NCBI RefSeq assembly: GCF_019602855.1 | Contig: NZ_CP080766.1 | Location: forward strand, 2,170,001-2,234,000 | DNA: 64,000 nucleotides | Direction: 5' to 3' | Source: Cupriavidus pinatubonensis | GTDB lineage: Bacteria; Pseudomonadota; Gammaproteobacteria; Burkholderiales; Burkholderiaceae | The notes under the pieces: model-generated | What the model saw: only the letters and a program-made list of their open reading frames with translations | Databases searched by the model: none | Told to the model about the DNA's origin: nothing | Made by a program: the position numbers and the translations under genes | Part shown: positions 16,568 to 59,158 of the stretch, piece after piece | Layout of the letters: each line of letters opens with the position of its first letter | Position numbering within the stretch: position 1 is the stretch's first letter

Positions 16568-17119
16568 TCAGTATACGTCGTGCATTGCGCCGCTCCGGGC
16601 CACAGCCACGGATAGTGGCTTGCCGTGTTCGGGGGGCACGGCGGGGCGCATTGCAGCAAGCGCAGCGAGGTCAAGTTCGTCGAGCCGTGCATCGCGCCAG
16701 GCGGCGCCGTCCCAGTGCTGGAAGCGCAGTTCAGCCAGCGGCACCTGCGCCAGCACGCCGACCCAGTCGGTCGGGGTGGCGCCGCGGCGCAGCCCGGCCG
16801 AAACCATGGCCATGGCTTCCGGGATGTCGATATCGGCCAGGCGCGTGACCGCGGGCCATGGCACAAGACGGTTGTCCGACGCCGGCAGGCCAAAGCGGAA
16901 CACGCCGTCCTTCTCGGGGAAAGCGGTCTTGGCGGCGGGGTGGCGTTTCCAGCCGGTCCTGGCGGTCGACGGCTCCCACGTCTGCTGGCGTGAAAACCAC
17001 AGCACGCCGAGCGACGCCGTGGCGTGCAGCGACCTTGCGGGAATCAGCAAGCCGGATTCCGCGATGGCTGGCAACCTCGTGCCGACCGTGTAGTGCCAGA
17101 CGAAGTTGGTGGGTTTCAT
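16568..17119 (-). CDS. Conserved hypothetical protein
   Basis: 183 residues, preceded by a strong AGGAGG eight bases before the ATG at 17119. The N terminus reads FVWHYTVGTRLPAIAESGLL, then GVLWFSRQQTWEP and a later RFGLPA. The pattern H-[YF]-T, L..I..SG.L, WFS is seen in small uncharacterised proteins and recalls ADP-ribosyltransferase-fold or KptA-like enzymes; this fold is my inference and no function is known. No signal peptide or membrane span. It lies between the nap promoter and the LuxR gene, with a short dyad (17186-17199) about 70 bases upstream. Confidence 0.75.
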   Translation of the reverse strand: MKPTNFVWHYTVGTRLPAIAESGLLIPARSLHATASLGVLWFSRQQTWEPSTARTGWKRHPAAKTAFPEKDGVFRFGLPASDNRLVPWPAVTRLADIDIPEAMAMVSAGLRRGATPTDWVGVLAQVPLAELRFQHWDGAAWRDARLDELDLAALAAMRPAVPPEHGKPLSVAVARSGAMHDVY

Positions 17120-17185
17120 GATGTCCTCCTGTTCGACACCTCCAGCTTGGGCGCGAATCCTTGCCTGGACAAGCAAGTTCATGAG

Positions 17186-17199
17186 GCATTGTGCAATGC
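17186..17199. promoter_or_regulatory. Short dyad upstream of the hypothetical gene
   Basis: GCATTG-TG-CAATGC, a perfect six-base inverted repeat with a two-base centre, 67-80 bases upstream of the ATG at 17119 and in the gap before the LuxR gene. It has the size and place of an operator; the binding protein is unknown. Confidence 0.4.
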
Positions 17200-17274
17200 G
17201 GAATAGTGAGGCGGCGTCGGCGTCGCGCTGCAGGAGGGTCCGTGCGCCGATGTGCGCCGACCGGCCTTTTCGCT

Positions 17275-20016
17275 TCACGGGATCAGGCCGCGGGAGCGCC
17301 CGATAGCGACAGCCTCCGTGCGGTTCTGCGCGCCGAGTTTGGCGTTGATCTTGCGCAGGTGTGACTTTACCGTCAGTTCGGAGAGAAAGAGCTTCTCCGC
17401 AATCGCGCGGTTGCGCAGGCCCGCCGACAGCATCTGCAGCACTTCCAGTTCGCGCGCCGTAAGGCTGTCCGACAGGCCGGCTACCAAAGCGGGTTCCGCT
17501 TCGGTGGCGACAGGCGCGCCCGGCAGCTTCGCCAGCAGCCGCGTGACGAACTGCGGGGCAATGCCCAGGCCCGCCGCCTGCGTCTGGTATGCCGAAGCCC
17601 AACTGCGTACCAGCATGGCGATCCGCTCACCTTCGTCGAGGAACGTGCGTACAAAGCCTTCGTGGCTGGCGAGCCGCAGCGCTTCAGTGATTTCCTGCAA
17701 CGCCTCGTCGCGCCGCGCGAGGCCGTCGAGCGCCGTGGCGCGCAGGATGCGTAGTTTGAGCAGGCGCCAGAAGCGCTGGTGCGCAATGGCAGCGCCGATG
17801 GCTTCGTCCAGTGCGGCGAGTGCCACCGCATGCTGTCCCTGCGCAATTTCCAGGCGGCGCCGCGTGATCGACGGACGTTCGATGTCGTTGGCGTGTCCGG
17901 CCGTATCACGGGCTTCCCAGCCGCCATACAGATCGACGGCGCGCAGCGCCTGTTCGGCGGCGTCGAGCCGGCCTTCGAGCGTGGCTACGCGGGCGCGCTC
18001 TATCCACGCCGAGCACACCGACCGTTCTGCATTGACCTGCTGACCGAGCTGTTCCAGTTCTGCCAGCACGCGCAGCCACTGCTCCTTGTCGCCGCGCAGC
18101 AGCGCCAGTCGCGCGCTCAGCACATGGCAGCCGATCACCGAGTCCGGCGGGCCGTTGGCCTTGGTGTAGGGCAGCGCGTCGGCGAGCAGCCGCGCCATTT
18201 CGTCGAGTGCATCGTTCTCGTACAGCGCCAGCGACCACGAGGTGTCGATCGCCGGCTTGTCGCCGGTGATGTCCCCGCTCGCGTCGTTCCACGTGCGCGT
18301 GGAGGCGGTGTGAAAGCGCGCCAGCGCGTTGCCAAGGCGGCCATGCACCAGATCGATGAGGCCTTCCAGGCAATCGGCGATGCTGCGCATGAATACCGAA
18401 CGCTCATCGGCACCGCGCTGGATCGCGCGCGACAACACGCTGCGCGCGTCGTCGTAGCGGTGGGTGCAGATCAGGCTGTAGGCCAGCGAGTTGGCGAGGA
18501 TGCAGTACTGGAACAGGTCGTCGGGCCCAAGCCGGTTGATCTGGACCATGCTGGCCTGGCGGCAGGCCTCGACCTGGTCGGTCATGACCAGCAGCACGCA
18601 GCGGATCGTTTCCGCTTCCACGGCGAGCCGCTCGCTGCCACCGCTGTCGCCAAGCGCCTGGATCGATTCGACGGCCTGCAGGGCATCGGCGTAGCGTCGG
18701 TTGAGCAGCAGCGCCCACGCACGTGCGAGCCTCAGGCGCGGATGGCGCGCCAGCGCTTCGGGGCGGATCGGGTCGAGCCAGCGCACGAGCAACCGGACGC
18801 GGCCCGCGCTCAGCAGCGCATCGGCCTGCCGCGCGATCTGGGGCAGCGCTTCGTCGTGCAAGCCGGCCTGTAGCAGGTGGTCCACCGCCGGCACCGGCCG
18901 GCTCTGCTCGAGGTACCAGCGGGCCGCGTCCCGGTGCAATTCCGTCGCGCGGCCCGGTTGCTGCAAGTCCAGCCGGTGCTGCAGGAAGCTGGCAAAGAGC
19001 TGGTGGTAGCGATACCAGGTGCGGTCGCCGTCCAGCGGGAACAGCAGCAGGTTGGCGCGCTCGAGGTAGTCGATCATTGCGCGGCTGTCTTGCCGGCCCG
19101 TGACAGCGTCGCACAGCGACGCGCTGAGTTGGCCCAGTACGCTGGTTTCGAGCAGGAACGACCGGCAGGCATCGCTCTGCTGCGCGAGGATGTCCTCGGC
19201 CAGGTATTCGGCCAGTTCAAGGTTGGTGCCCGAGAACGAGGCGACGAATGCCGCGTGGTCCGTGCGTGTCTGGAGGGACAGCGTGGCCAGGTAGATCGCG
19301 GTGGCCCAGCCTTCGGTGCAGCGGTGCAGCGTGGCAATCTCGCTGTCGCGCAGCGGCAGGTGGCAGCGCTCGCGGATCAGCGCAGTGGCTTCTTCGAGCG
19401 TGAAGCGCAACTGCGCGGGGTGGATCTCGAGCAGGTGCCCGCGCGCACGGATGCGTCCCAGCCCGATTTCGGGCGTGACGCGCGAGGCGATCACCAGCGT
19501 GCCGCACGGCGGCATGGCTTCGACGAGTTGCTGCACGAAGTTCAGCACCGATGCGCTTTGGACGGTCTCGAAGTCGTCGAGCAGGATGCTGAACGGCAAC
19601 ACGGCGCTGGCCACCTGTTCGATGATGCGGTGCGCGAGCCGCGGCCCGGTCGTGTCATCGGCGGGCGCGGTGCCCCGCGCGGCCTTGCGCTTGCCATGCA
19701 GAGCCTGCAGGCCGGCGTCGAGGTGGACCAGGAACCGTTCGAGGTCGTTGTCGCCGCCGTCCACGCGTAACCATGCCGTGCTGCGCTGGCGCGCCGCGCA
19801 TTGGACGGCGTATTGCTGCATCAGCGTGGTCTTGCCAAAGCCGGCGGCCGCGCGAATCAGGATCAGCCGCGCCGCGCTGGCATCAAGCATGCCCTGTACG
19901 AGCTGCGGCCGCGGCAGTGTCGCCGGTCCGCTGGCTGGCGGCACCAGCTTCGACGCCACCAGCCCGCGCGAGGGCGGGCGGGCAGGCAAGGGGATGTCCT
20001 CTACTCCTTTGTGCAT
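17275..20016 (-). CDS. MalT/AlkS-type ATP-dependent LuxR family regulator
   Basis: 913-residue large LuxR-type activator. An N-terminal STAND NTPase domain carries Walker A AAAGFGKT (56-63) and a Walker B-like SILLDD. A long helical repeat region, typical of MalT-like inducer-sensing superhelices, fills the centre. The C terminus has a LuxR HTH (LTARELEVLQMLSAGLRNRAIAEKLF and onward). Family members are activated by inducer and ATP. AlkS, which controls alkane oxidation in Pseudomonas, has the same build. It diverges from the acyl-CoA ligase operon with 255 bases between, so it is very likely that operon's activator. Inducer unknown. Confidence 0.9.
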   Translation of the reverse strand: MHKGVEDIPLPARPPSRGLVASKLVPPASGPATLPRPQLVQGMLDASAARLILIRAAAGFGKTTLMQQYAVQCAARQRSTAWLRVDGGDNDLERFLVHLDAGLQALHGKRKAARGTAPADDTTGPRLAHRIIEQVASAVLPFSILLDDFETVQSASVLNFVQQLVEAMPPCGTLVIASRVTPEIGLGRIRARGHLLEIHPAQLRFTLEEATALIRERCHLPLRDSEIATLHRCTEGWATAIYLATLSLQTRTDHAAFVASFSGTNLELAEYLAEDILAQQSDACRSFLLETSVLGQLSASLCDAVTGRQDSRAMIDYLERANLLLFPLDGDRTWYRYHQLFASFLQHRLDLQQPGRATELHRDAARWYLEQSRPVPAVDHLLQAGLHDEALPQIARQADALLSAGRVRLLVRWLDPIRPEALARHPRLRLARAWALLLNRRYADALQAVESIQALGDSGGSERLAVEAETIRCVLLVMTDQVEACRQASMVQINRLGPDDLFQYCILANSLAYSLICTHRYDDARSVLSRAIQRGADERSVFMRSIADCLEGLIDLVHGRLGNALARFHTASTRTWNDASGDITGDKPAIDTSWSLALYENDALDEMARLLADALPYTKANGPPDSVIGCHVLSARLALLRGDKEQWLRVLAELEQLGQQVNAERSVCSAWIERARVATLEGRLDAAEQALRAVDLYGGWEARDTAGHANDIERPSITRRRLEIAQGQHAVALAALDEAIGAAIAHQRFWRLLKLRILRATALDGLARRDEALQEITEALRLASHEGFVRTFLDEGERIAMLVRSWASAYQTQAAGLGIAPQFVTRLLAKLPGAPVATEAEPALVAGLSDSLTARELEVLQMLSAGLRNRAIAEKLFLSELTVKSHLRKINAKLGAQNRTEAVAIGRSRGLIP

Positions 20017-20271
20017 GGCTTATCCGACGCGTCTGACTACAGTTTTGCCTGATTTGTGATCAATTCTACGCATACTGGCCATCGGATTCAGGAAAAACGC
20101 GATTGTTCCACGCCTGCGTACGCCTGTCGTAGTTCTTTCGAACGATTCGGCGTCCGCCGGGATTTTCCTCCCTTCGACGGACGACAGCCGACAGGGCGGC
20201 TCCTAAAGTGGCCGACTACAGCGGGGCGCCACGTCCTCCCCGCCGCCCACGCACTCCGGAGACTTCGCAGT

Positions 20272-21828
20272 ATGTACCTGACCCAAGGGCTGCATCGCTG
20301 TCTGCAGCAAACGCCTGATCGCACGGCCACTATCTTTCGTACCCGCCGCCAGACCTTTCGCCAGCTTGGCGACCGCGTCGCGCGCCTGGCCGGCGCACTG
20401 CGCCAGCTGGGCATGGCCGAAGGGCACCGCGTCAGCATGCTGGCGCTGAACTCGGACCGCTATCTCGAATACATGCTGTCGGTCTGGTGGGGCGGCGGCG
20501 TGCTCAATCCCGTCAATACCCGCTGGAGCGTGCCCGAGATCGTCTACTCGCTTGACGATTGCGACACCGGCATCCTGATCGTCGACGACCACTTCCTGCC
20601 GATGGTGCCCGGCATCGTTGCGAGCGCCAGCCGAAAGCCGGTGCTGATCCACGTCGGTGACAACTCCACGCCCGACGGCATGCTGTCGTACGAGCGGCTT
20701 GTTGCCGAAGCTACGCCGGTCGAAGACGCGCAGCGCGGCGGCGACGACCTGGCCGCCATCATGTACACAGGCGGCACCACGGGCAAGCCCAAGGGCGTGA
20801 TGCAGTCGCACATGAACCTGTGGTCGTCGGCGATCTCGCGCATGGCGCAGTATCCGTGCCCCGAAGACACCATCACGCTGCATGCGTGCCCGCTGTTCCA
20901 CACCGCGGCCATGGCCAAGGCGGTGACGCTGTTCGTCGCCGGTGCCACGCATGCGCTGATTCCCGCCTTCGATGCGAAGGAAGTGCTCGACACCATGGTG
21001 AGGGAACAGGTCAATGAAATCCTGCTAGTCCCGACCATGCTGCAGGCGGTGCTCTCGCATCCCGATTTCGCGAGCCATGACCTGCGCGGCCTGCAGCGCA
21101 TCAACTATGGTGCCTCGCCGATCAGTGCTGGCCTGCTCGATGCTGCGCTGGCCGCGCTGCCGCAGGTGCAGTTCTTCCACGCGTACGGACTGACCGAGGC
21201 CGCTCCGGTGGTCTCCGTCAATCCGCCCGTCAATCACGGCCCGGAGGGCCGTGCCAGCGGCCTGTACCGCTCGGCTGGCCGCGCCGGGTACGGCGTCACG
21301 GTCAAGATCGTGGACGATCAGGGCGTCGAAGTGCCGCGCAATACCGTCGGCGAAATCATCGTGCGCGGCCCGAACGTCATGCAGGGCTACTGGAACAAGG
21401 CCGCCGAGACCGCGGCCACGCTGCGCGATGGCTGGCTGCATACCGGCGACGGCGCATACATGGATGAAAACGGCTACCTGTTCATCGTCGACCGACTCAA
21501 GGACATGATCGTGAGCGGCGGCGAAAACGTCTACTCGGCGGAAGTCGAGAACGTGCTCTCGCGCCATCCGGCGGTGGCGTCGTGCGCCGTGATCGGCGTG
21601 CCTGATGCGCGCTGGGGTGAGGCCGTGCATGCGGTGATCGTGCTCAAGCCCGGCGCGCAGGCCGACGAGGCCGGCCTGCGCGAGCACTGCCGCCAGTTTA
21701 TCGCGGGCTACAAATGCCCGAAGAGCATCGAATTCCGTGCCGAGATGCCGCTGTCCGCGGCCGGCAAGATCCTCAAGCGCGATCTGCGCTCCCCGTACTG
21801 GAAAGACAGCACCCGGCAGGTCAACTGA
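20272..21828 (+). CDS. Fatty-acyl-CoA synthetase (AMP-forming ligase)
   Basis: 518-residue ANL-superfamily ligase that activates a carboxylic acid with ATP and CoA. The P-loop is YTGGTTGKPKG (about residue 164), then YGLTEAAPVV, the hinge region HTGDGAYMDENGYLFIVDRLKDM and a C-terminal Lys in SAAGKILKRDLR. The start at 20272 (MYLTQGLHRCLQQ) follows CCGGAGACTTCGCAGT; the open frame runs further upstream without similarity. First gene of the ten-gene operon and probably the entry point of the acid into beta-oxidation. Chain length or ring type of the acid is not evident. Confidence 0.9.
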   Translation: MYLTQGLHRCLQQTPDRTATIFRTRRQTFRQLGDRVARLAGALRQLGMAEGHRVSMLALNSDRYLEYMLSVWWGGGVLNPVNTRWSVPEIVYSLDDCDTGILIVDDHFLPMVPGIVASASRKPVLIHVGDNSTPDGMLSYERLVAEATPVEDAQRGGDDLAAIMYTGGTTGKPKGVMQSHMNLWSSAISRMAQYPCPEDTITLHACPLFHTAAMAKAVTLFVAGATHALIPAFDAKEVLDTMVREQVNEILLVPTMLQAVLSHPDFASHDLRGLQRINYGASPISAGLLDAALAALPQVQFFHAYGLTEAAPVVSVNPPVNHGPEGRASGLYRSAGRAGYGVTVKIVDDQGVEVPRNTVGEIIVRGPNVMQGYWNKAAETAATLRDGWLHTGDGAYMDENGYLFIVDRLKDMIVSGGENVYSAEVENVLSRHPAVASCAVIGVPDARWGEAVHAVIVLKPGAQADEAGLREHCRQFIAGYKCPKSIEFRAEMPLSAAGKILKRDLRSPYWKDSTRQVN

Positions 21829-21864
21829 GGCGGCCGCCTTCTTTAATTCTCAGAGGAAATCGAC

Positions 21865-23052
21865 ATGAGCAACAAAGTGGTAGTGGCCGGCGTCGGCATG
21901 ATCCCGTTCACCAAGCCTGGCGCCAGCGATGACTATGGCGTGATGGGCGCCAATGCGGCCAAGGCCGCGCTGGCAGATGCTGGCATCGACTACGCGCTGG
22001 TAGAGCAGGCCTACGTTGGCTATGTGTTCGGCGATTCGACGTCGGGCCAGGCCGCCATCTACGGCGTCGGCCTGACCGGCATTCCGGTCATCAACGTCAA
22101 CAACAACTGCGCCACCGGCTCGACCGCGCTGTTCCTGGCGCGCCAGGCCGTGGAAAGCGGCGCGATTGAATGCGCCATCGCGGTCGGCTTCGAGCAGATG
22201 GTGCCGGGCGCGCTCAAGGGCGCTTATACCGACCGTCCTGGCCCGATGGAACGCTTTGCGAACACCATGGCGCAAGTCCAGGGCTTCGACGAGCAGGCGC
22301 CGCGCGCGGCGCAGTTCTTCGGCGGCGCGGGCCGTGCGTACATGAAGGAATACGGCATCCGCCCGGACACCTTCGCGCGCATCTCGGTCAAGGCGCGCCA
22401 GCATGCCGCGCGCAACCCGTTTGCAGTGTTCCGCAATACCGTTACTCTGGAAGAGGTCATGGCGGCGCCGACCGTGTTCGACCCGCTCACACGCCTGCAG
22501 TGCTGCCCGCCGACCTGCGGCGCTGCCGCCGCGATCCTGTGCACGGAAGCGTTCGCGCGCAAGCATGGCCTCGACACGCGCGTGAACATCGCCGCGCAAG
22601 CCATGACCACGGACCGCAACAGCACCTTCGACGAAGGCGACATGCGCAAGGTGGTGGGCTACGACATGACCGCTGCCGCAGCGAAAGCCGTCTACGAGAA
22701 GGCCGGTGTTGCGCCGACCGATATCGACGTGGTGGAACTGCACGACTGCTTCACCGCCAACGAGCTGATTACCTACGAAGGCCTGGGTCTGACTCCGGTC
22801 GGTACTGCCGAGAAATTCATCGTCGATGGCGACAACACCTACGGCGGCCGCGTGGTTACCAATCCGTCGGGCGGCCTGCTGTCCAAGGGTCACCCGCTGG
22901 GTGCCACCGGCCTCGCGCAATGCGCCGAACTGGTCTGGCAACTGCGCGGCAAGGCCGGTGACCGCCAGGTCGAAGGCGCGCGCCTGGCGCTGCAGCACAA
23001 CCTCGGCCTCGGTGGCGCCTGCGTGGTGACGCTGTACGAACGCCAGCAATAA
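21865..23052 (+). CDS. SCP-x-type thiolase / lipid-transfer protein
   Basis: 395-residue thiolase-fold enzyme of the SCP-x class, which cleaves 3-ketoacyl-CoA esters, often branched or steroid-like ones. The nucleophile is C82 in NNNCATGSTAL. A catalytic-type HDCFTANEL and the NPSGGLLSKGHPLGATG loop complete the site. It lacks the C-terminal CxG pair of canonical thiolases, ending LGGACVVTLYERQQ. AGAGGAAA precedes the ATG. It sits 36 bases after the ligase. The class points to a substrate other than simple straight-chain fatty acid, but this is an inference. Confidence 0.88.
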   Translation: MSNKVVVAGVGMIPFTKPGASDDYGVMGANAAKAALADAGIDYALVEQAYVGYVFGDSTSGQAAIYGVGLTGIPVINVNNNCATGSTALFLARQAVESGAIECAIAVGFEQMVPGALKGAYTDRPGPMERFANTMAQVQGFDEQAPRAAQFFGGAGRAYMKEYGIRPDTFARISVKARQHAARNPFAVFRNTVTLEEVMAAPTVFDPLTRLQCCPPTCGAAAAILCTEAFARKHGLDTRVNIAAQAMTTDRNSTFDEGDMRKVVGYDMTAAAAKAVYEKAGVAPTDIDVVELHDCFTANELITYEGLGLTPVGTAEKFIVDGDNTYGGRVVTNPSGGLLSKGHPLGATGLAQCAELVWQLRGKAGDRQVEGARLALQHNLGLGGACVVTLYERQQ

Positions 23053-23072
23053 GCGGTAAAGGAAGCACAGAG

Positions 23073-23516
23073 ATGATCGACAAGATCCATATCGGCGCGC
23101 TGATCTCGCGCCATTCCGTTGACGTGGAGGCCGGACGCCTGCGCTTCTTCGCCAAGGCGACGGGCCAGAATGATGCGCGCTACACCGACCTGGCTGCGGC
23201 CGAGGCCGCGGGCTATCCGGACCTGCCGGTACCGCCCACTTTCCTGTTCTGCCTCGAAATGGAATCGCCCAATCCGCGCGCCATGATCGAGCGGCTGAAC
23301 ATCGATATCGGCAAGGTCCTGCATGGCCAGCAGCATTTCGAATACCACCGAATGGCCTATGCGGGCGAGTGCCTGACCTTCGAAACCCGCGTGGCCGACA
23401 TCTACGAAAAGAAGGGCGGCGCACTGGAGTTCGTGGTGCGCGAAACCCGTGTGACTGACGCCAAGGGCGACCCGGTCGCCGACCTGCGCAGCACCATCGT
23501 CGTGCGCAACAGCTAA
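23073..23516 (+). CDS. MaoC-type dehydratase N-terminal domain protein
   Basis: 147-residue single hot-dog domain (FAS1-like dehydratase region). It begins with the domain-typical RLRFFAKATGQNDARYTD, then PVPPTFLFCLEME, but lacks the catalytic D-x4-H hydratase motif. In this family such a subunit pairs with a second MaoC protein to form a heterodimeric enoyl-CoA hydratase, as in steroid side-chain degradation; the partner is the next gene, ten bases on. The role as a hydratase subunit for bulky acyl-CoA is inferred from that arrangement. Confidence 0.85.
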   Translation: MIDKIHIGALISRHSVDVEAGRLRFFAKATGQNDARYTDLAAAEAAGYPDLPVPPTFLFCLEMESPNPRAMIERLNIDIGKVLHGQQHFEYHRMAYAGECLTFETRVADIYEKKGGALEFVVRETRVTDAKGDPVADLRSTIVVRNS

Positions 23517-23526
23517 GGAGACAGCC

Positions 23527-23943
23527 ATGCAGACCCTCCGGTTTGATGAGATCGCGGTCGGCACGGAGCTGCCGTCCTTTACCGCGCCGCCGCTGAACCG
23601 CCTCACGCTGGCGCTGTACGCCGGTGCCTCGGGCGACCACAACCCGATCCACGTCGATATCGACTTTGCGCGCAGGGCAGGCATGCCTGACGTATTCGCC
23701 CACGGCATGCTGTCGATGGCTTACCTCGGCCGTCTGCTGACCAACTGGGTGTCGCAACAAGACATTCGCAGCTTCTCGGTGCGCTTTGCCGCGATCACGC
23801 ATGTCGGCGACGAGATCGCGTGCACCGGCACGGTTGTGGAAAAGGATGACGTTGCGCGCACCGTGCGCGTGGCACTGGAGACCCGCAACCAGACGGGCGA
23901 AATCAAGCTGTCAGGCGATGCACTGATCGCCCTTGCCGCCTGA
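23527..23943 (+). CDS. MaoC family (R)-enoyl-CoA hydratase
   Basis: 138-residue hot-dog hydratase. The catalytic motif YAGASGDHNPIHVDIDFAR holds the Asp and His of the MaoC/PhaJ site, followed by FAHGMLSM. It adds water to a trans-2-enoyl-CoA. An AAGGAG lies just before the ATG. Together with the preceding hot-dog protein it probably makes an alpha-beta hydratase whose split design in other bacteria accommodates large substrates. Confidence 0.88.
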   Translation: MQTLRFDEIAVGTELPSFTAPPLNRLTLALYAGASGDHNPIHVDIDFARRAGMPDVFAHGMLSMAYLGRLLTNWVSQQDIRSFSVRFAAITHVGDEIACTGTVVEKDDVARTVRVALETRNQTGEIKLSGDALIALAA

Positions 23944-23993
23944 GGCGGCCGGACAGCCGGGACATTCAACAGATCAGCAAAGGAGTACAGGAA

Positions 23994-24824
23994 ATGAGAA
24001 AACTCGTCGACAAGGTCGCTATCGTTTCGGGTTCGGGCCGCGGCATCGGCCGTGAAATCGCGCTGAAGCTCGCCAGCGAAGGCGCAGCCGTCGTGATCAA
24101 CGACCTCGACGCGGAACCGGCACAGGCCGTGGTGCAGGAGATCGTCGCCGCCGGCGGCAAGGCCGTCGCGTGCGTGGGCAGCGTGACCGAAGCCGATTTC
24201 GGCACCCGCTTCGTCGGTACCGCGCTGCAGACCTTCGGTCGCCTGGACATCATCGTCAACAACGCCGGCTACACCTGGGACAACGTGATCCAGAAGATGA
24301 CCGACGAACAGTGGTCGGCCATCATGGACGTGCACGTGACCGCGCCGTTCCGCATTCTGCGCGCCGCCGCTGACTACTTCCGCGAAGCCGCCAAGAAGGA
24401 AGCCGAGGCCGGCCAGGAAGTGTTCCGCAAGGTGGTCAACATCTCGTCGGTATCGGGCGTGATGGGCAACGCCGGCCAGGCCAACTACTCGGCCGGCAAA
24501 GCCGCCATCAACGGCCTGACCAAGGCACTCGCCAAGGAGTGGGGCCGTTACAAGGTCAACGTCAACAGCGTGGCGTTCGGCCTGATCAAGACGCGCCTGA
24601 CCGAGGCCACGGCCGGCTCGGACAACACCTCGACGCTGAACATCGGCGGCAACGAGATCAAGGTTGGCGTGAATCCGCAGCTCATGAAAAATATCGAAGC
24701 GATGATCCCGCTGGGCCGTGGCGGCACGCCGGTCGAAGCTGCGGGTTCTGTGTACCTGCTGTGCATCCCCGAGTCGAACTACATCACCGGCCAGGTGCTG
24801 ATCTGCGGCGGCGGCCGTCCCTGA
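23994..24824 (+). CDS. SDR family oxidoreductase (3-hydroxyacyl-CoA dehydrogenase type)
   Basis: 276-residue classical SDR: cofactor motif GSGRGIG (about residues 12-18), NNAG, Ser in ISSVSG and YSAGK. Residues 100-140 include REAAKKEAEAGQEVFRKVVN, a loop insertion seen in MFE-2/HSD17B4-like 3-hydroxyacyl-CoA dehydrogenases. In the operon it follows the hydratase pair, so it most likely oxidises 3-hydroxyacyl-CoA to 3-ketoacyl-CoA for the thiolase. Ribosome-binding site AAAGGAG precedes the ATG. Confidence 0.87.
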   Translation: MRKLVDKVAIVSGSGRGIGREIALKLASEGAAVVINDLDAEPAQAVVQEIVAAGGKAVACVGSVTEADFGTRFVGTALQTFGRLDIIVNNAGYTWDNVIQKMTDEQWSAIMDVHVTAPFRILRAAADYFREAAKKEAEAGQEVFRKVVNISSVSGVMGNAGQANYSAGKAAINGLTKALAKEWGRYKVNVNSVAFGLIKTRLTEATAGSDNTSTLNIGGNEIKVGVNPQLMKNIEAMIPLGRGGTPVEAAGSVYLLCIPESNYITGQVLICGGGRP

Positions 24825-24842
24825 TCGAAGCGGAGCAAGAGC

Positions 24843-25991
24843 ATGGCATTCAATCAACGTCCCTGGATTACTGACGACCTGGCGATGTTCCAGGACGGCA
24901 TCCGCAAGTTCATCGAACGCGAGCTGGTTCCGCACGAGGATCGCTGGTGGAAGCAGCAGCACGTCGACCGCGAGATCTGGCGCAAGGCCGGCGAGATGGG
25001 CATGTTGTGCGCGAGCATTCCCGAGGAATACGGCGGTGGCGGCGGCAACTTCGCGCATGAAGCAGTCATCACGCTCGAGCAGTCCCGGGTGGGCGTCAGC
25101 AGCCTTGGCACTAACGTCCACAGCGGCATCGTCGCGCATTACATCCTGCGTTATGGCACCGAGGCGCAGAAGCAGAACTGGCTGCCGAAGATGGCCAGCG
25201 GCGAAATAGTCGCGGCCATTGCCATGTCGGAGCCCGGTGCGGGATCGGACCTCAAGAGCATCAAGGCGCGCGCCGTCCGCGACGGCGACCAGTATGTGCT
25301 GAACGGCTCGAAGACCTTCATCACCAATGGCTTTCTGGCCGACCTGATCCTGGTGGTCTGCAAGACCGATCCGGACAAGGGTGCAAAAGGCGTGTCGATC
25401 GTCGTGGTCGAGACCGAGAACCTGCCGGGCTTCCGCCGCGGCCGCATCCTTGAAAAGATCGGCCAGAAGGGTCAGGACACAGCCGAGCTGTTCTTCGACG
25501 ACGTGCGCGTGCCCTGCACGAACCTGCTGGGCACGGAAGAAGGCAAAGGCTTCTACCAGCTCATGCAGCAGCTTCCGCAGGAGCGCATGATCATCGCGCT
25601 GGGCGCGTTGTCTGCGATGGAACGCGCGGTGGAACTGACCACCGACTACGTGCGCGAACGCAAAGTGTTTGGCGCGACGCTGCTCGACATGCAGAACACC
25701 CGCTTCAAGCTGGCGGAGTGCAAGACCAAGGCTGTCATCGCGGGCGCATTTGTCGACGACTGCATGGCCAAGGTCCTGCGCGACGAGCTCGATCCCGAGA
25801 CCGCCGCCATGGCGAAGTGGTGGGGCACGCAGACGAGCTGCGAAATCATCGATGAATGCCTGCAGCTCCATGGCGGCTACGGCTACATGATGGAGTACCC
25901 GATCGCGCGCATGTACGTGAACGCACGCGTGGGCAAGATCTACGGCGGCTCGAACGAGATCATGAAGGAGATCATCGCGCGCACGCTCTGA
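24843..25991 (+). CDS. Acyl-CoA dehydrogenase
   Basis: 382-residue FAD-dependent acyl-CoA dehydrogenase, full length. The signature stretches AIAMSEPGAGSD and QLHGGYGYMMEYPIARM are intact; the Glu in EYP fits the usual catalytic-base position. The C terminus KIYGGSNEIMKEIIARTL is typical. It makes trans-2-enoyl-CoA, the first oxidative step after the ligase. It sits 18 bases after the SDR. With ligase, hydratase pair, SDR and thiolase it completes one beta-oxidation cycle. Confidence 0.9.
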   Translation: MAFNQRPWITDDLAMFQDGIRKFIERELVPHEDRWWKQQHVDREIWRKAGEMGMLCASIPEEYGGGGGNFAHEAVITLEQSRVGVSSLGTNVHSGIVAHYILRYGTEAQKQNWLPKMASGEIVAAIAMSEPGAGSDLKSIKARAVRDGDQYVLNGSKTFITNGFLADLILVVCKTDPDKGAKGVSIVVVETENLPGFRRGRILEKIGQKGQDTAELFFDDVRVPCTNLLGTEEGKGFYQLMQQLPQERMIIALGALSAMERAVELTTDYVRERKVFGATLLDMQNTRFKLAECKTKAVIAGAFVDDCMAKVLRDELDPETAAMAKWWGTQTSCEIIDECLQLHGGYGYMMEYPIARMYVNARVGKIYGGSNEIMKEIIARTL

Positions 25992-26090
25992 CCTTAGCGG
26001 CACCGCAGGACCATGGCTGCATGACCAGGCCCGCCAGAGGCCGGCTGCAGCCGCGAATCGGTAGAACCAATGAAAAATGGAGACAGCAAG

Positions 26091-27092
26091 ATGCAGCAGC
26101 AAAGGCGAAAGGTTTTGCAGCAGTTGGCGCTCGGTTTGGCAGGCGCGGCATTCGGAGGCGTCGGCCTCAATGCGCGGGCCCAGGCCAACGCGGCCGGGTT
26201 CCCATCGCGCGCGGTGCGCGTGGTGTACCCGTACCAGGCGGGCGGTACCGGCGACGTGGTCGCGCGGCAGATTGCCGAGGGCCTTGCCAAAGCCTGGGGC
26301 AAGCCGGTCATCGTTGACAACCGGCCCGGCGCCGGCGGCATGATCGGTGCTGACATGGTCGCCAAGGCCGACCCGGACGGCCATACGCTACTGCTGACGC
26401 TGACCGGTATGGTGCAGGCGCCAAGCCTGTACAGCAAGGCGCCGTACAACCCGGTGCGGGACTTTGCGCCGGTTTCGGAGCTTGCCACGTCGAACCTTGC
26501 GCTGGTGGTGCAGCCTTCGCTCGGGGTGAGCAGCGTGAAGCAGCTGATCGAATACATCGGCAAGCAGGGGAAGCCGCTGGCGTACGGTTCCTATGGCCTG
26601 GGCTCGAGTGGCCATTTGCAGATGGAGATCTTCGGACGCAACGCGAAAGTGGCGCTCACACATGTGCCCTACAAAGGTGAGGCGCCAATGGTCAACGACC
26701 TGCTGGGCGGACAGCTTCCGGCCGGCATGATCGCCGCAGTCAGTGCGCGCCAGCATGCCGCCGCGGGCAAGCTGCGGGTGCTCGCTGTTGCAGGCGCAGC
26801 GCGCTCACCCATGCTGCCTGACGTGCCGACGTTTGCCGAGGCTGGCGTGCGTGGACTCGAGCGGCAGGGATGGGTGGGCATGTTCGCGCCCGCTGCAACG
26901 CCGCGCGCCATCGTGGAAAAGGTGTCGGCCGACGTCAACCGCACGTTGACCAACCCCGATTTCCGCGCGCGCATGGTCGATCTTGGGATCGTGCTCAAGG
27001 GAAGCACGCCGTCGGCTTTCTCCGATGTCGTCAAGGCCGAGCAGGCCTATTGGGCCGAAGCGATCCGTGCTTCGGACATCCGCCTGGACTGA
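26091..27092 (+). CDS. Bug family tripartite tricarboxylate transporter binding protein
   Basis: 333-residue periplasmic solute-binding protein of the Bug (TctC) family. An N-terminal signal (QRRKVLQQLALGLAGAAFGG) ends near NARAQANAAG. The family stretch VVYPYQAGGTGDVVARQIAEGL, PVIVDNRPGAGG and the ADPDGHTLLLT loop are all present. I chose the ATG at 26091, eight bases after GGAG, over one seven codons earlier. No tctAB membrane genes are nearby, as is common for Bug proteins. It probably captures the pathway's substrate, usually a carboxylate. Confidence 0.9.
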   Translation: MQQQRRKVLQQLALGLAGAAFGGVGLNARAQANAAGFPSRAVRVVYPYQAGGTGDVVARQIAEGLAKAWGKPVIVDNRPGAGGMIGADMVAKADPDGHTLLLTLTGMVQAPSLYSKAPYNPVRDFAPVSELATSNLALVVQPSLGVSSVKQLIEYIGKQGKPLAYGSYGLGSSGHLQMEIFGRNAKVALTHVPYKGEAPMVNDLLGGQLPAGMIAAVSARQHAAAGKLRVLAVAGAARSPMLPDVPTFAEAGVRGLERQGWVGMFAPAATPRAIVEKVSADVNRTLTNPDFRARMVDLGIVLKGSTPSAFSDVVKAEQAYWAEAIRASDIRLD

Positions 27093-27173
27093 TTGCGCCA
27101 GCATGCAGTGAATCGCTGGTGCGGCAGATCGAGCCCGCGCCGGCCAGCAGCCCACCGAACAAAAGGAGATGAT

Positions 27174-28088
27174 ATGACCCGTAGCAATGCCGCCGTTCAA
27201 CTTAGCGATGCGTCCGCCGAACCTAACACCCTGAACTACCACGGCTTCACCATTACACGGTCGACGCCGACCATTGGTGCCGAGGTCGGCGGGATCGATC
27301 TGGCCGAGACGCTCGACGACGCCACCGTGGCCGCGCTGCGGCAAGCGCTGGTGCGCCACAAGGTGCTGTTCTTCCGCGACCAGGACATCACGCCGGCACA
27401 GCACGTGCAGCTCGCACGCCGCTTCGGCGAACTCGAAGTTCACCCCGTCTTTCCGCATCACGAGGACCATCCCGAATTGGTGCTGCTGGGCGGAAGCAAG
27501 GACATGCGTGGCCGCGAGAACATCTACCACTCCGACGTCTCGTGGCGCGAGGTGCCGTCGATGGCGTCGATGCTGCGCTGCGTGGAGTGCCCCGACACCG
27601 GCGGCGACACGATCTGGGTCGATATGGCACGTGCCTACGCGGCCCTGCCCGACGCCGTCAAGGAGCGGATCGACGGCCTCTATGCGGTTCACGACATCAT
27701 GCCCGGCTTCGGCGCACGCATGACTCCGGAGGAACGTGAAGTCAACCGCAAGAAGTTCCCTGCGGTCACGCACCCGGTCGTGCGCACGCATCCCGAGAGC
27801 GGTGAAAAGATCCTCTACGTCAACGAAGGATTTGTCACGCATCTCGCGAACTTCGGCGAGAAGGTGCAGTTCCGCGTGGGCTTCGATTTCCGCTATGGCG
27901 AACTCGATCTGCTGCAGTACCTGTTCCGCCAGGCCGCCGTGCCCGAGTACCAGGTCCGCCTGAAATGGCGGCCCAACACCATTGCGTTCTGGGATAACCG
28001 TTCCACGCAGCACTACGCCGTGCAGGACTATTTCCCCGCAGTACGCCGGATGATGCGCGCGACCATCATCGGCGATAAACCTTTCTGA
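27174..28088 (+). CDS. TauD/TfdA family 2-oxoglutarate-dependent dioxygenase
   Basis: 304-residue non-haem iron dioxygenase. Iron ligands are H119 and D121 (YHSDVSW) and the distal H280 (STQHYAVQDYFP); an Arg pair at about 287 fits the 2-oxoglutarate carboxylate. Length is close to the alkylsulfatase AtsK and taurine dioxygenase group. Such enzymes hydroxylate next to a heteroatom, so that a sulfate, sulfonate or ether breaks and an aldehyde or ketone is left. The next gene is an aldehyde dehydrogenase, which fits that chemistry. Actual substrate unknown. AAGGAG precedes the ATG. Confidence 0.88.
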   Translation: MTRSNAAVQLSDASAEPNTLNYHGFTITRSTPTIGAEVGGIDLAETLDDATVAALRQALVRHKVLFFRDQDITPAQHVQLARRFGELEVHPVFPHHEDHPELVLLGGSKDMRGRENIYHSDVSWREVPSMASMLRCVECPDTGGDTIWVDMARAYAALPDAVKERIDGLYAVHDIMPGFGARMTPEEREVNRKKFPAVTHPVVRTHPESGEKILYVNEGFVTHLANFGEKVQFRVGFDFRYGELDLLQYLFRQAAVPEYQVRLKWRPNTIAFWDNRSTQHYAVQDYFPAVRRMMRATIIGDKPF

Positions 28089-28118
28089 AGCGCCCCCACT
28101 TTCAGGAGTTAACGCTCG

Positions 28119-29567
28119 ATGCACAATCTCAATACGTTCTATATCGGGGGCGAGTGGGTTAAACCCGCTGATGGCGCCACGTTGGCGGATCTCGTCAACC
28201 CGGCGACGGAGGCCGTGATCGGCACGGTCGCCATGGGTGGCGCGGCCGATGTCGACCGTGCCGTGGCGGCCGCGCGCGACGCGTTCGCATCGTGGTCCAG
28301 GTCCAGTCGCGAGGAACGCCTGGCCCTGCTGCGCCGCATTTCCGACGGCTACAAGGCGCGCATCGGGGAGATTGCCGAGGCCATCAGCACGGAGATTGGC
28401 GCGCCAATCTGGCTGTGCCGTGAATACCAGGCCCCGATGGGCTTGGTACAGATTCAGGCAGCCATTGCAGCGCTCGAAGCGTTCGAGTTCGTCACCGTCA
28501 AGGGCACGACCCAGGTCGTGCGGGAGGCGGTCGGCGTGGCCGCGCTGATCACGCCGTGGAACTGGCCGGTCAATCAGATTGCCGCCAAGGTGGCGCCGGC
28601 GCTGGCGGCCGGATGCACGATGGTGCTCAAGCCATCGGAAATCGCGCCGCTCGACGCGCGCATCTTTGCCGAGATCGTGCAGGAGGCCTGCCAGGCCACA
28701 TCGACGCCCGCAGGCGTGTTCAACATGTTGTTTGGCACGGGTCCGACGGTCGGCGCGGCGTTGTCGCGCCACCCCGATGTCGACATGGTGTCCATCACCG
28801 GCTCCACGCGCGCTGGCGTAGACGTGGCCATGCAGGCCGCGCCAACGGTGAAGCGCGTCGCGCAGGAACTTGGCGGCAAGTCGCCCAACGTCATCCTCGA
28901 TGATGCCGATCTCAAGGCTGCGGTCTCTCAGGGCGTGGTGAGCTGCATGCTGAATTCCGGCCAGACCTGCACGGCGCCGACGCGCATGCTGGTACCACGC
29001 GCGCAATACCAGATGGCCATCGCGATTGCGCAAGCGACGGTGCAGGCGCTGACTGTCGGTGATCCGTCTTCGCCTGACAGCAAGCTGGGGCCCAGTTCCA
29101 ACCGTGCACAGTACGAACGTGTCCAGCGCATGATCGAAGCCGGTATCCAGGAGGGCGCACGCGTCGTGGCCGGTGGTCCGGGCCGCCCGGAAGGACTTGC
29201 GCAGGGCTTTTACAACCGCCCGACGGTATTTGCCGACGTCAGCAACGACATGACCATTGCCCGGGAGGAGATTTTCGGGCCGGTGCTGTCGATGATTCCT
29301 TACGACAACGAGGCTGAGGCAATCCGTATCGCCAACGACACGCCTTACGGGCTCGCTGCCTATGTCTGGTCGGGCAACCCGGCACGTGCGCGCCGCGTCG
29401 CTGGAGAACTGCGCGCGGGCTCCGTGCAGATCAACGGTGCGAAGATGGACTTTGCCGCGCCGTTCGGCGGCTACAAGACGTCGGGCAACGGCCGCGAGTT
29501 CGGCGCGTACGGCCTGGCCGAGTTCCTCGAATACAAGTCGGTCGCAGGCTGCACCGTGGATGAATGA
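28119..29567 (+). CDS. Aldehyde dehydrogenase family protein
   Basis: 482-residue NAD(P)-dependent aldehyde dehydrogenase, complete. The catalytic nucleophile is C284 (SGQTCTAPT), the general base E250 (QELGGKSPN), and the oxyanion Asn lies in TPWNWPVNQ. It turns an aldehyde into the acid that the operon's first enzyme can activate. The gene overlaps no neighbour; a TTTCAGGAGTT leader precedes the ATG. It lies between the TauD dioxygenase and the GMC alcohol dehydrogenase, so its aldehyde could come from either. Confidence 0.92.
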   Translation: MHNLNTFYIGGEWVKPADGATLADLVNPATEAVIGTVAMGGAADVDRAVAAARDAFASWSRSSREERLALLRRISDGYKARIGEIAEAISTEIGAPIWLCREYQAPMGLVQIQAAIAALEAFEFVTVKGTTQVVREAVGVAALITPWNWPVNQIAAKVAPALAAGCTMVLKPSEIAPLDARIFAEIVQEACQATSTPAGVFNMLFGTGPTVGAALSRHPDVDMVSITGSTRAGVDVAMQAAPTVKRVAQELGGKSPNVILDDADLKAAVSQGVVSCMLNSGQTCTAPTRMLVPRAQYQMAIAIAQATVQALTVGDPSSPDSKLGPSSNRAQYERVQRMIEAGIQEGARVVAGGPGRPEGLAQGFYNRPTVFADVSNDMTIAREEIFGPVLSMIPYDNEAEAIRIANDTPYGLAAYVWSGNPARARRVAGELRAGSVQINGAKMDFAAPFGGYKTSGNGREFGAYGLAEFLEYKSVAGCTVDE

Positions 29568-29583
29568 AGGAGTGACCGATTAC

Positions 29584-31224
29584 ATGGAAACGTTTGACTA
29601 TCTGGTGGTGGGTGCCGGCTCGGCAGGCTGCGCCATTGCATCAAGGCTGGCCGAAGACCCCGCCGTGACGGTGGCCCTGATCGAGGCCGGGCCGACTGAT
29701 CACCATATGAGCATCTGGATGCCGATCGGCATGGCATCTACCGTGCGCAATGCCGGCCCACGCAACTACGGCTACTACACCGTGCCGCAGCCGGGCTTCA
29801 ACGGGCGGCAGGGTTACCAGCCGCGCGGCAAGGGTCTGGGCGGCAGCTCGTCGATCAACGGCATGGTCTATATCCGCGGTCACCGCAACGACTACGACGA
29901 CTGGGCGCGCCTGGGCTGCACCGGCTGGGGATATGAAGACGTGCTGCCGTACTTCCGGCGCAGCGAACATCACGAGGACTACAGCGGCCGGGACGATAAC
30001 CGATGGCACGGTGGCACGGGCCCGCTGCGCGTAAGCAACCTGCGCTCGCCCAGCCCGTTTTCCCGGCGCTTTATCGACGCGGCAATCCAGGCTGGCTATC
30101 GGCCCAATAGCGATTTCAACGGTGCGGATCAGGAGGGAGCGGGCTTCTACCACGTCACCCAGCATCGTGGCGAGCGCTGGAATTCGGCGCGCGCCTACCT
30201 GCATCAGGGCAACGCGGGCGACAAGACTCTGAGCGGAGGCCGCAGCAACCTTTCGGTGCTGGTCGAGACGCAGGTGCTGCGTATCAACTTCGACGGCAGG
30301 CGGGCCACGGGACTGACCGTTGTGCGCGGCGGGGTGGAGCAGAAGCTGGCGGCACGGCGCGAAGTCATTGTCAGCGCCGGGGCCTTCAACTCGCCGCAGT
30401 TGCTGCTGGCGTCCGGCGTAGGCCCGGCGCGCGAGCTTTTTGACATGGGGATTCATGTTGTAGCCGACCTGCCTGGCGTAGGTAGGAACCTGCAGGACCA
30501 TCCGGATGTCATCCTGAACAAGCAGGTGCATTCGCTGGACCTGTTTGGCCATTCCTTTGGCGGCTTTGTGAAGCTGTCGATGGAGTTGCTGCGCTATCGC
30601 CGCAAACGCACCGGCATGCCTAGCAGCAATTTCGCGGAGGCCGGCGCTTTCATCAAGAGTCGGCAGGGACTTGCGGCCCCTGATATTCAGCTGCATTTCA
30701 TCACGGCACTGCTCAATCACGGCAGCGACAGGAAGAAGCTGGGTCATGGCTATTCCTGCCATGCCTGCGTGCTGCGGCCGAAGAGTGTTGGAGAAGTACG
30801 ATTGCGTTCCCCGGACATGCGCGAAGCACCGGTCATCGATCCGCGCTTCCTCAGCCATGAGGAAGATATGACCGTCATGGTGGCAGGCGTGCGCGCAATC
30901 CGCCGCATCTTCGCGCAGCAGGCGCTGGCCAGCGCCGGCGGCCGCGAGCTGTTCACCGACGAATTCGGGCCGGGCGACGGCGACCAGCAAGCAATCGAGG
31001 CTTTCGTGCGCGAGCGGACCGACAGCGTCTACCACCCGGTCGGCACCTGCAAGATGGGTGTGGATGACATGGCCGTGGTCGATCCCGCCTTGCGTGTGCG
31101 TGGTGTGCAGGGCTTGCGCGTGGTCGATGCATCGATCATGCCGACGCTGGTGGCAGGCAACACCAATGCGCCGGCGATCATGATCGCCGAGAAGGCGGCA
31201 GACCTGATCCGCGCCGGCGACTAA
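29584..31224 (+). CDS. GMC family FAD-dependent alcohol dehydrogenase
   Basis: 546-residue glucose-methanol-choline oxidoreductase. The N-terminal FAD motif is VVGAGSAGCAIASRL, then GKGLGGSSSINGMVYIRGH, and the C-terminal active-site region has VYHPVGTCKMG and GNTNAPAIMIAEK. Members such as AlkJ, choline dehydrogenase and polyethylene-glycol dehydrogenase oxidise alcohols to aldehydes, feeding electrons to quinone. Start taken at ATG 29584 (METFDYLVVG), 12 bases after AAGGAG; an in-frame ATG at 29560 overlaps the previous gene. Last gene of the operon, followed by two perfect hairpins. Confidence 0.9.
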   Translation: METFDYLVVGAGSAGCAIASRLAEDPAVTVALIEAGPTDHHMSIWMPIGMASTVRNAGPRNYGYYTVPQPGFNGRQGYQPRGKGLGGSSSINGMVYIRGHRNDYDDWARLGCTGWGYEDVLPYFRRSEHHEDYSGRDDNRWHGGTGPLRVSNLRSPSPFSRRFIDAAIQAGYRPNSDFNGADQEGAGFYHVTQHRGERWNSARAYLHQGNAGDKTLSGGRSNLSVLVETQVLRINFDGRRATGLTVVRGGVEQKLAARREVIVSAGAFNSPQLLLASGVGPARELFDMGIHVVADLPGVGRNLQDHPDVILNKQVHSLDLFGHSFGGFVKLSMELLRYRRKRTGMPSSNFAEAGAFIKSRQGLAAPDIQLHFITALLNHGSDRKKLGHGYSCHACVLRPKSVGEVRLRSPDMREAPVIDPRFLSHEEDMTVMVAGVRAIRRIFAQQALASAGGRELFTDEFGPGDGDQQAIEAFVRERTDSVYHPVGTCKMGVDDMAVVDPALRVRGVQGLRVVDASIMPTLVAGNTNAPAIMIAEKAADLIRAGD

Positions 31225-31228
31225 CGGG

Positions 31229-31282
31229 ACGGCACTGCAATCGTCTTGCCGGCCCGCAGTGCCGTGAGGTGCTGCGGGCCGG
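31229..31282. terminator. Two overlapping, mutually exclusive hairpins after the GMC gene
   Basis: Stem 1 is ACGGCACTGC (31229-31238) with GCAGTGCCGT (31256-31265), ten perfect pairs. Stem 2 is CCGGCCCGCAG (31249-31259) with CTGCGGGCCGG (31272-31282), eleven perfect pairs. They share 31256-31259, so only one can form at a time. The site lies between convergent genes, five bases after the GMC stop. No U-tract follows, so classical intrinsic termination is unsure. Confidence 0.6.
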
Positions 31283-31297
31283 GGCGTCGGGCCGGCT

Positions 31298-31633
31298 TCA
31301 GAGATAGGTAGCCACAACCACGTACGTGTTCGTGGCGCCACGGCGGCCAATCGGCTCCAGCCGCAACTGGGCCGCGCCCACTCGGGCGCTTGCGGCCTTG
31401 CCAAGGGCCGCCGCGCGCAACGCCTTGCTGACCGGGCGCCCCGCCGGCGTCAGGCAAGTGGCGTTGACCCCTTGCGCGTCCGCCTCGAACCCGCACGAGG
31501 GCTCGGTGATCGCACCCTGGAACGTGATGGTGCCGGACTGCGCGGCCGCACCGCCCGCGATACCTGCCGCAACACACAACGACAATCCGACCCGTCGCGC
31601 CCATGCCGGCACGCGCCTTTCCTTTGCGTCCAT
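31298..31633 (-). CDS. Small secreted fimbrin-like protein
   Basis: 111-residue exported protein. The signal sequence covers about residues 1-32 (VGLSLCVAAGIAGGAAAQ, cleavage near AAAQ-S). The mature start GTITFQGAITEPSCGFE resembles the first strand and first Cys of type 1 pilin subunits, and a second Cys (NATCLTP) could close the disulfide. At about 80 residues the mature part is much shorter than a true fimbrial subunit (about 150). No usher or chaperone genes are near. Start chosen at 31633 because GGAGGG sits seven bases upstream. Function unknown. Confidence 0.65.
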   Translation of the reverse strand: MDAKERRVPAWARRVGLSLCVAAGIAGGAAAQSGTITFQGAITEPSCGFEADAQGVNATCLTPAGRPVSKALRAAALGKAASARVGAAQLRLEPIGRRGATNTYVVVATYL

Positions 31634-56963: not shown

Positions 56964-56994
56964 GCGGAGTTCCTCTGGTTCTGACGCAGGCGTG

Positions 56995-57309: not shown

Positions 57310-57321
57310 GAGGGCTCCTTG

Positions 57322-57792: not shown

Positions 57793-57796
57793 GGCG

Positions 57797-59150: not shown

Positions 59151-59158
59151 AGACTTCC

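Follow-up and report, generated by a model that had tools for sequence, protein, structure and literature searches.

A run of oxidation genes in Cupriavidus pinatubonensis raises the question of which substrate it serves and how it is switched on. The run lies in a stretch of 64,000 nucleotides (NZ_CP080766.1, positions 2,170,001 to 2,234,000), here called the window, and the host genome has 7.55 Mb in four contigs. A preliminary description made from the sequence alone reported ten plus-strand genes facing a MalT-type regulator, and this observation was confirmed. The best explanation, to which we assign a probability of roughly 45% as a whole statement, is that the genes form a catabolic operon under local control which serves alpha-branched (2-alkyl) primary alcohols and probably also their sulfate esters. 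There is good support for the branched part of this statement, and we infer the sulfate part. The operon joins two separately conserved modules, an entry module and a branched-chain beta-oxidation module, under one switch.

Ten open reading frames (ORFs) occupy the plus strand at 20272–31224, and one ORF on the minus strand (17275–20016; 913 residues in the ORF call) encodes the divergent regulator. The intergenic gaps within the plus-strand run are 10–81 bp. Start positions were corrected for the ligase gene (20272), the TauD-like gene (27174) and the GMC alcohol dehydrogenase gene (29560 or 29584), and the earlier of the two possible GMC starts makes this gene overlap the stop codon of the aldehyde dehydrogenase (ALDH) gene. 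The G+C content of the locus is inside the window's own range, and no tRNA was found in the window by ARAGORN. The gene families named in the preliminary description were borne out by the ORF call and by Pfam and NCBIfam identities, and its proposal of a single regulated oxidation operon is supported. Profile scans of the 11 proteins gave no member of an alkane hydroxylase or rubredoxin family, in line with its claim that a hydroxylase is absent.

All 11 genes are complete and collinear in three other genomes of the genus (G528, G500, and G495), with protein identities of 88–99%. The ratio of nonsynonymous to synonymous substitution rates (NG86 dN/dS) was 0.015–0.152 across all 33 comparisons (11 genes in 3 genomes), and the locus is therefore a real, selected unit. 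When 60 genus genomes including the own genome were searched, GMC proteins of at least 88% identity and thiolases of at least 98% identity were each confined to the own genome and these three. A fourth other genome (G523, a draft 86% complete) has a thiolase of 95% identity in a partial locus that runs to the contig end; it keeps the regulator, ligase, thiolase, acyl-CoA dehydrogenase, and Bug genes at 87–98% with broken frames and has no MaoC or SDR (short-chain dehydrogenase/reductase) gene between them. The check proposed in the preliminary description, a search for the same gene order elsewhere, thus gave three collinear genomes and one partial case. Shorter forms also occur. Strain CH34 (L183/L247) has, by the ORF calls, ligase-thiolase-SDR-Bug-TauD with the regulator alongside, and four loci of relatives (L038, L039, L119, and L120) have the regulator with ligase-thiolase-MaoC-MaoC-SDR-acyl-CoA dehydrogenase, the TauD, ALDH, and GMC genes not being in the fetched stretch. 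For fetched loci, genes were called with a simple ORF finder that missed or mislabelled overlapping genes; in locus L295 it overlooked the SDR gene and the first MaoC gene, and tblastn shows both.

The first six genes of the run indicate what kind of acyl-CoA is degraded. An acyl-CoA ligase of the PRK06187 subfamily (20272–21828, plus strand; 517 bits against a cut-off of 476) is followed by an SCP2-type (type 1) thiolase (21865–23052, plus strand), which scores 698.1 bits in NCBIfam PRK08256 (cut-off 436) and whose nearest solved relatives are the type-1 SCP2-thiolases 6hsj and 6hrv (E ~1e-146; next match 2.6e-63). Two MaoC-like genes encode a partner subunit with a FAS1 DH region (23073–23516, plus strand; PF13452) and a catalytic subunit that is predicted to be an (R)-enoyl-CoA hydratase (23527–23943, plus strand; PF01575). 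The second protein contains GDHNPIHVD, which we take to be a hydratase-2 type motif, and the first lacks the D...H residues; the matches to PF01575 and to the MFE-2 hydratase family PF22622 fit the hydratase-2 type at the family level. The SCP-x thiolase and split hydratase of branched-chain type in the preliminary description are supported. The SDR (23994–24824, plus strand) is a probable (3R)-3-hydroxyacyl-CoA dehydrogenase; its sole PDB match at E ≤ 1e-48 is 2et6, a (3R)-hydroxyacyl-CoA dehydrogenase. The acyl-CoA dehydrogenase (24843–25991, plus strand) is LCAD-like, with 2pg0 (named only "acyl-CoA dehydrogenase") as its best PDB match and the long-chain specific acyl-CoA dehydrogenase 8w0t as the next (E 2.6e-114).

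This core is a widespread module. Among 100 loci fetched by SDR similarity, which may include several from one genome or from near relatives, 60 hold the thiolase, both MaoC genes, and the SDR. A racemase-like stretch (tblastn > 200 bits) is present in 17 of these 60 core loci. One of the racemase-like proteins matched the Mycobacterium tuberculosis racemases (MCR and FAR) at 4e-99 and 3e-83 versus 3e-37 for other CoA transferases, and a second matched them at 1.6e-80 and 1e-71 versus 1e-26. Racemases mark alpha-methyl-branched substrates. On the grounds of the SCP2-thiolase, the (3R)-type SDR, the LCAD-like enzyme, and the racemase-like genes of related loci, the substrate of the beta-oxidation half is, with good probability, a branched acyl-CoA. 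The term "undescribed pathway" in the preliminary description was overstated for this half; for the cluster as a whole, the open-license literature gave no match gene by gene.

SCP2-thiolase, racemase, and MFE-2-type enzymes are also the set that degrades the bile-acid side chain in peroxisomes, and the match in enzyme kinds brings in catabolism of a steroid or isoprenoid side chain, with the core handling the alpha-methyl groups of that chain, as an alternative that we regard as unlikely. Of the four genomes that carry the whole locus, three have a 3-ketosteroid-dehydrogenase-like gene, but the fourth, G528, has no such match at E ≤ 1e-60; the seven genomes searched gave nine matches, all under the family cut-off, and the run contains no partner of the DUF35/Shy-Sal type. 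Cupriavidus necator ATCC 17699 is described in part of one study as growing on testosterone; the same part describes C. necator as using neither cholesterol nor cholate and members of Cupriavidus as being without most cholate side-chain genes (PMC4810484). With G528 as the counterexample, a steroid side chain was rejected as a required substrate, and the steroid-like acyl-CoA of the preliminary description falls in the same sense; it is a possible substrate, not a required one.

For the branched-alcohol reading, the entry module is the part that has to supply the acid, and its TauD-like Fe(II)/2-oxoglutarate dioxygenase (27174–28088, plus strand; PF02668), a putative enzyme of the oxidative alkyl-sulfatase type, is the key to the sulfate question. 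The iron and 2-oxoglutarate residues of Escherichia coli TauD are kept in its clade. The residues that we take to form the sulfonate site are also kept, H70 and F206 in 62/62 and V102 and R270 in 61/62 clade proteins (a set that includes the window protein and L167 and lacks L303, and so differs slightly from the 62 gene neighborhoods considered below). The residues at the positions corresponding to TauD Y73, D94, and N95 have changed: the first is F, I, L, or A and is Tyr in none of the 62, the second is R, M, H, T, or Y and mostly Arg, and the third is Glu in all 62 and Asn in none. In the window protein they are F, R, and E. These three residues bind the amino group of taurine, according to part of a study in which AtsK and Rv3406 are given with Val or Ile for Y73 and Ala for D94, i.e. 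two of the three made hydrophobic (PMC3675115). All three taurine-amine residues are thus replaced in the window protein. Most members share the signature R-E-N-[LI]-Y-H-S-D. Compared with E. coli TauD, the window protein carries about 11 extra residues after F206, and the solved structure 5vn6 has the same insertion.

The sharpest new claim from this comparison is that the clade is probably not a taurine dioxygenase. The residues kept in the anion site suggest a role on a sulfate or sulfonate group, which agrees with the sulfate link that the preliminary description had made for the dioxygenase. That the enzyme is a true taurine or sulfonate sulfur scavenger with incidental neighbors is very improbable; its nearest solved relatives are called taurine dioxygenases (AtsK is also among the PDB neighbors), but the amine residues are replaced, the score in the NCBIfam taurine dioxygenase family is 292.6 bits under a cut-off of 313, no tauABC-type transporter is encoded among the 11 proteins, and the gene sits in a carbon-catabolic operon. 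Oxidative (type II) alkyl sulfatases are familiar as sulfur scavengers, a role demonstrated for Rv3406. The above study counts two members characterized in vitro or in vivo as of 2013 and gives 2-ethylhexyl sulfate, a branched ester, as the best substrate of Rv3406 (PMC3675115). A TauD match at E ≤ 1e-110 was obtained in 41 of 299 genomes of the family. A further TauD of this clade (70% identity; G000:C1:2442110-2442943, L165:12110-12940) is encoded in the own genome, where it adjoins a Bug gene, and a racemase-like stretch lies about 9.6 kb from this paralogue (50% identity to that of L172).

The aldehyde dehydrogenase (28119–29567, plus strand; PF00171) and the GMC alcohol dehydrogenase of the choline-dehydrogenase-like subfamily (29560 or 29584 to 31224, plus strand; PF00732/PF05199) complete the run. 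A choline-O-sulfate/bet operon was rejected, as the GMC protein scores 492.5 bits in NCBIfam betA (cut-off 732.1) and the ALDH 410.5 bits in betB (cut-off 668.6). The neighborhoods of TauD were examined at 62 distinct places, all outside the window; they derive from 66 rows by removal of duplicates (L168, L183, L182, and L172) and of L130, whose TauD matches fell in two frames under the length filter, and by addition of L303. An orthologous ALDH lies within 400 bp on the same strand at 42 of the 62 places and another ALDH family at 4 more (46/62), and a GMC gene lies within 2.3 kb at 28/62. Cleavage of the TauD type at a C-S or C-O carbon yields an aldehyde, and the recurrent ALDH neighbor therefore makes an aldehyde the likely product of the TauD-like enzyme.

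Sulfatases also recur near TauD. Twelve genomes have 2–7 PF00884 sulfatases each (E ≤ 1e-20), so that a 20-kb stretch is expected to hold one in about 1 of 100 cases; a PF00884-type sulfatase was found in 19 of the 62 TauD stretches, 17 of one lineage and two that are different in kind (L252, which also has an FGE maturase, and L270). The L281 member of the lineage of 17 (PF00884) has 4upi and 4upl, "sulfatase family protein", as its best solved relatives; it scores higher for PehA (311.8 bits) than for choline sulfatase (188.5 bits), both under the cut-off, which is a further ground for rejecting a choline-O-sulfate/bet operon. Stronger evidence than these neighbors is provided by a sister run on one strand in G528 (contig C3, L295:3009-18198), a genome that has the full window locus too. 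Its order is SDR (70%), acyl-CoA dehydrogenase (56%), an alpha-methylacyl-CoA-racemase-like gene, ALDH (30%), GMC (52%), ligase (57%), SCP2-thiolase (67%), MaoC partner (50%), MaoC (59%), FGE maturase, sulfatase, and a porin-like gene, and the sulfatase takes the place held by TauD in the window operon. The link to sulfatases gains a little from the full gene set of this run.

In the main rival the branched chain is the same and the leaving group is another: the operon would degrade branched alcohols or acids, and the TauD-like enzyme would cleave an ether or an amine-free alkyl sulfonate, or hydroxylate the chain. We regard this as doubtful, with evidence on both sides. The sulfate- or sulfonate-binding residues kept in 61–62 of 62 proteins and the recurrence of sulfatases near TauD argue against it; the core module mostly lacks a sulfatase (1/60), and the (R)-phenoxypropionate dioxygenase 6d0o is among the PDB neighbors of the TauD-like protein (1.5e-42). 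A more distant TauD relative (52% identity) lies in a multi-gene run on plasmid p2 of Novosphingobium sp. ES2-1 (L188:13027-18825), together with genes for a quinone oxidoreductase, a 3-keto-5-aminohexanoate cleavage protein, an alpha/beta hydrolase, an MFS protein, and a member of the "putative sulfate exporter family". This neighborhood is another hint of a sulfur leaving group, and the exporter-family gene fits a sulfonate or a sulfate alike.

A few further genes were observed near TauD or the core. A 581-residue protein is encoded between GMC and TauD at L269:2944-4689 and L294:7391-9136, the L269 copy being without a Pfam match, and a protein near the SCP2-thiolase of a Pseudomonas locus (L076:18626-20398) has a similar "NPYLAQSYNNQTHWNDG" start and no Pfam match. 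Squalene-hopene cyclase genes lie about 3–13 kb from TauD in two Cupriavidus-type genomes (L265:3718-5703 and L172:11473-14433), and L172 also carries a squalene/phytoene synthase.

Whether the two halves belong together at all has to be asked, since the modules are mostly apart: TauD is present in 4 of the 60 core loci, and in 16 of the 66 TauD rows the fetched stretch includes a thiolase with 58% identity or more. Even so, it is quite unlikely that chance has put two unrelated pathways, one for branched acids and the other made up of TauD, ALDH, and GMC, into one transcript, as the modules meet repeatedly in varied orders (L070, L118, L130, L132, L135, L182, L183, L186, L187, L248, L249, and L303, some of them near relatives) and, in Paraburkholderia domus, one operator lies ahead of a thiolase-ALDH-GMC run.

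The regulator (17275–20016, minus strand) is a MalT-type protein with STAND ATPase, TPR, and LuxR HTH parts (Pfam TPR_MalT and GerE), with 89–95% identity in the three collinear loci. A small protein encoded on the minus strand at 16568–17119 of the window adjoins it, and one also lies beside the regulator in G500 (L163:1554-2105). Upstream of the ligase gene, the top-scoring position is a 17-bp operator-like dyad, GTAGTTCTTTCGAACGA (20129–20145, plus strand). A degenerate proximal copy (20165–20181, plus strand), 36 bp downstream from start to start, and a putative promoter, CGACAG-16 nt-TAAAGT (20182–20209, plus strand), were recognized by eye, the latter by its conserved spacing; a consensus scan missed this promoter. 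In the interval 17000–31700, scans gave 0 sigma-70 consensus sites against 2.2 expected from shuffles, and 8 terminator-like sites against 8.9 expected, which is the shuffle level.

In 13 of 13 promoters, the window included, the highest score upstream of the ligase belongs to a 17-bp dyad that fits GTRGTYCKTTCGRACSA, with a match at 16–17 of 17 positions and a distance of 143–181 bp to the ligase start. The pattern was built from the same 13 promoters, which were hand-picked from fetched loci whose ligase has about 70% identity or more and leave out G504, G524, and G497 (thiolase 89%). A weaker second copy lies 36–37 bp downstream where it scores (L164, L039, L119, L121, L120, and L038); it is clearest in L038 and L119, with 37-bp spacing, and is outside the top three scores in the window itself. 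A single exact match to the pattern occurs in the remaining 3.68 Mb of loci; it is in P. domus, between a regulator (65% over the 235 residues present) and the run of thiolase (84%), ALDH (75%), and GMC (65%) genes mentioned above. In G511 the regulator and ligase genes are separated, and a one-mismatch site lies ahead of each. In L038, L039, L119, and L120 the site remains at the ligase even though the regulator gene lies at the opposite end of the operon. The sole exact match in the own genome is the ligase promoter of this operon. These four observations make the association of the dyad with the regulator strong. The regulator may bind at the dyad and respond to an inducer, acting as an activator rather than a repressor. 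A wider regulon in the own genome was rejected, since one extra one-mismatch site (C1:1934913) versus three reversed-control matches leaves more targets unsupported.

With the modules and the switch in place, the proposed route through the branched-alcohol operon would run as follows. The TauD-like enzyme would hydroxylate the sulfate-bearing carbon to release sulfate and an aldehyde, and the free alcohol would enter through the GMC dehydrogenase. The ALDH would oxidize the aldehyde to a 2-alkyl acid, which the ligase would convert to its CoA thioester. The LCAD-like dehydrogenase, the MaoC pair, the SDR, and the SCP2-thiolase could then carry out one (R)-type round of beta-oxidation on the branched acyl-CoA, with the MalT-type regulator presumably switching on the operon at the conserved dyad.

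Several observations weigh against this route. The Bug/TctC periplasmic binding protein (26070–27092, plus strand; PF03401) is not accounted for by it. No alpha-methylacyl-CoA racemase was found in the window run, and no sulfatase or sulfate exporter in the window locus. By sequence the TauD-like protein scores higher with TauD (233 bits) than with AtsK (153 bits), and it has Arg at the D94 position where the alkyl sulfatases have Ala. At the order level the clade is narrow, with a TauD match at E ≤ 1e-95 in 3 of 300 genomes of an order-wide draw. Neither kind of ALDH lies within 400 bp at 16 of the 62 TauD places, although in L276, one of these 16, the orthologous ALDH lies farther off, at about 1.6 kb, and in L278, another, it adjoins TauD at 58% identity, under the threshold of 60%. 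The sulfatase counts shrink on inspection: 17 of the 19 cases share synteny as one lineage, in which a divergent GntR gene lies between the sulfatase and GMC-TauD-ALDH (as read in L273 and L281), so there are about three independent cases near TauD. With TauD in 4 and a PF00884-type sulfatase in 1 of the 60 core loci, the core has no tie of its own to sulfate, which belongs to the entry half.

Comparison with known systems places the two halves separately. Judged by family, the core resembles peroxisomal branched-chain beta-oxidation (MFE-2/SCPx and AMACR) in its probable (R)-hydratase, (3R)-hydroxyacyl-CoA dehydrogenase, and type-1 SCP2-thiolase, and the related loci add racemase-like stretches. 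It differs in having separate genes where MFE-2 and SCPx are fused, in the lack of a racemase and of an SCP2 lipid-binding domain, and in an LCAD-like dehydrogenase instead of an oxidase. SCP2-thiolase/MaoC/SDR/acyl-CoA dehydrogenase modules of Pseudomonas, Bradyrhizobium, Rhodococcus, Mycobacterium, and others contain the same kinds of core genes, frequently arranged alike, but seldom have TauD or GMC (4/60 and 1/60), both of which the window has. The TauD-like protein appears similar to AtsK (P. putida) and Rv3406 (M. tuberculosis) in its fold family, its iron, 2-oxoglutarate, and sulfate-binding residues, and its lost taurine-amine contacts; it is nearer to TauD overall, its clade has Glu at N95 and mostly Arg at D94, and all three amine residues are replaced where the two enzymes have two replaced. 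Rv3406 serves sulfur scavenging, whereas the window gene sits in a carbon-catabolic operon.

AlkJ, AlkH, and AlkK act as alcohol dehydrogenase, aldehyde dehydrogenase, and ligase, respectively. The operon resembles the alkBFGHJKL/alkS system of Pseudomonas putida GPo1 at the family level, having GMC, ALDH, and ligase under a LuxR/MalT-type regulator, and differs by lacking alkane hydroxylase and rubredoxin families and by its own beta-oxidation set, TauD, and Bug genes. AlkS is assigned to the LuxR/MalT-type family in part of PMC3664771. The parallel with AlkJ/H/K/S in the preliminary description thus holds for the broad families; it is weaker than stated, being a likeness by family only, with the regulator at 357.4 bits under the 537-bit equivalog cut-off of NCBIfam MalT.

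Elsewhere in the window, the ORFs at 55704–60061 suggest the reductase, the ferredoxin, and the small and large subunits of a ring-hydroxylating dioxygenase, with a divergent LysR-type gene, and those on the minus strand at 5105–9836 and 13277–15772 read as cytochrome c maturation genes and the catalytic subunit of a periplasmic nitrate reductase.

No gene-for-gene description of the cluster was found in the open-license PMC literature, subscription papers being outside the search. All of the enzyme families are already known, and their combination appears to be new. More tentatively, the locus could be a dedicated carbon route for branched primary-alcohol sulfate esters, in which a new TauD-derived clade would replace a hydrolytic sulfatase, hand its aldehyde to a partner ALDH, and feed an SCPx/MFE-2-type pathway under one MalT-type switch. 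If the TauD-like clade is indeed tied to ALDH, many "taurine dioxygenase" annotations would be wrong, and the operon would offer a testable gene set for the breakdown of branched surfactants. The operator-like site is a candidate for a biosensor, and the core is a simple bacterial model for the human SCPx/MFE-2 chemistry.

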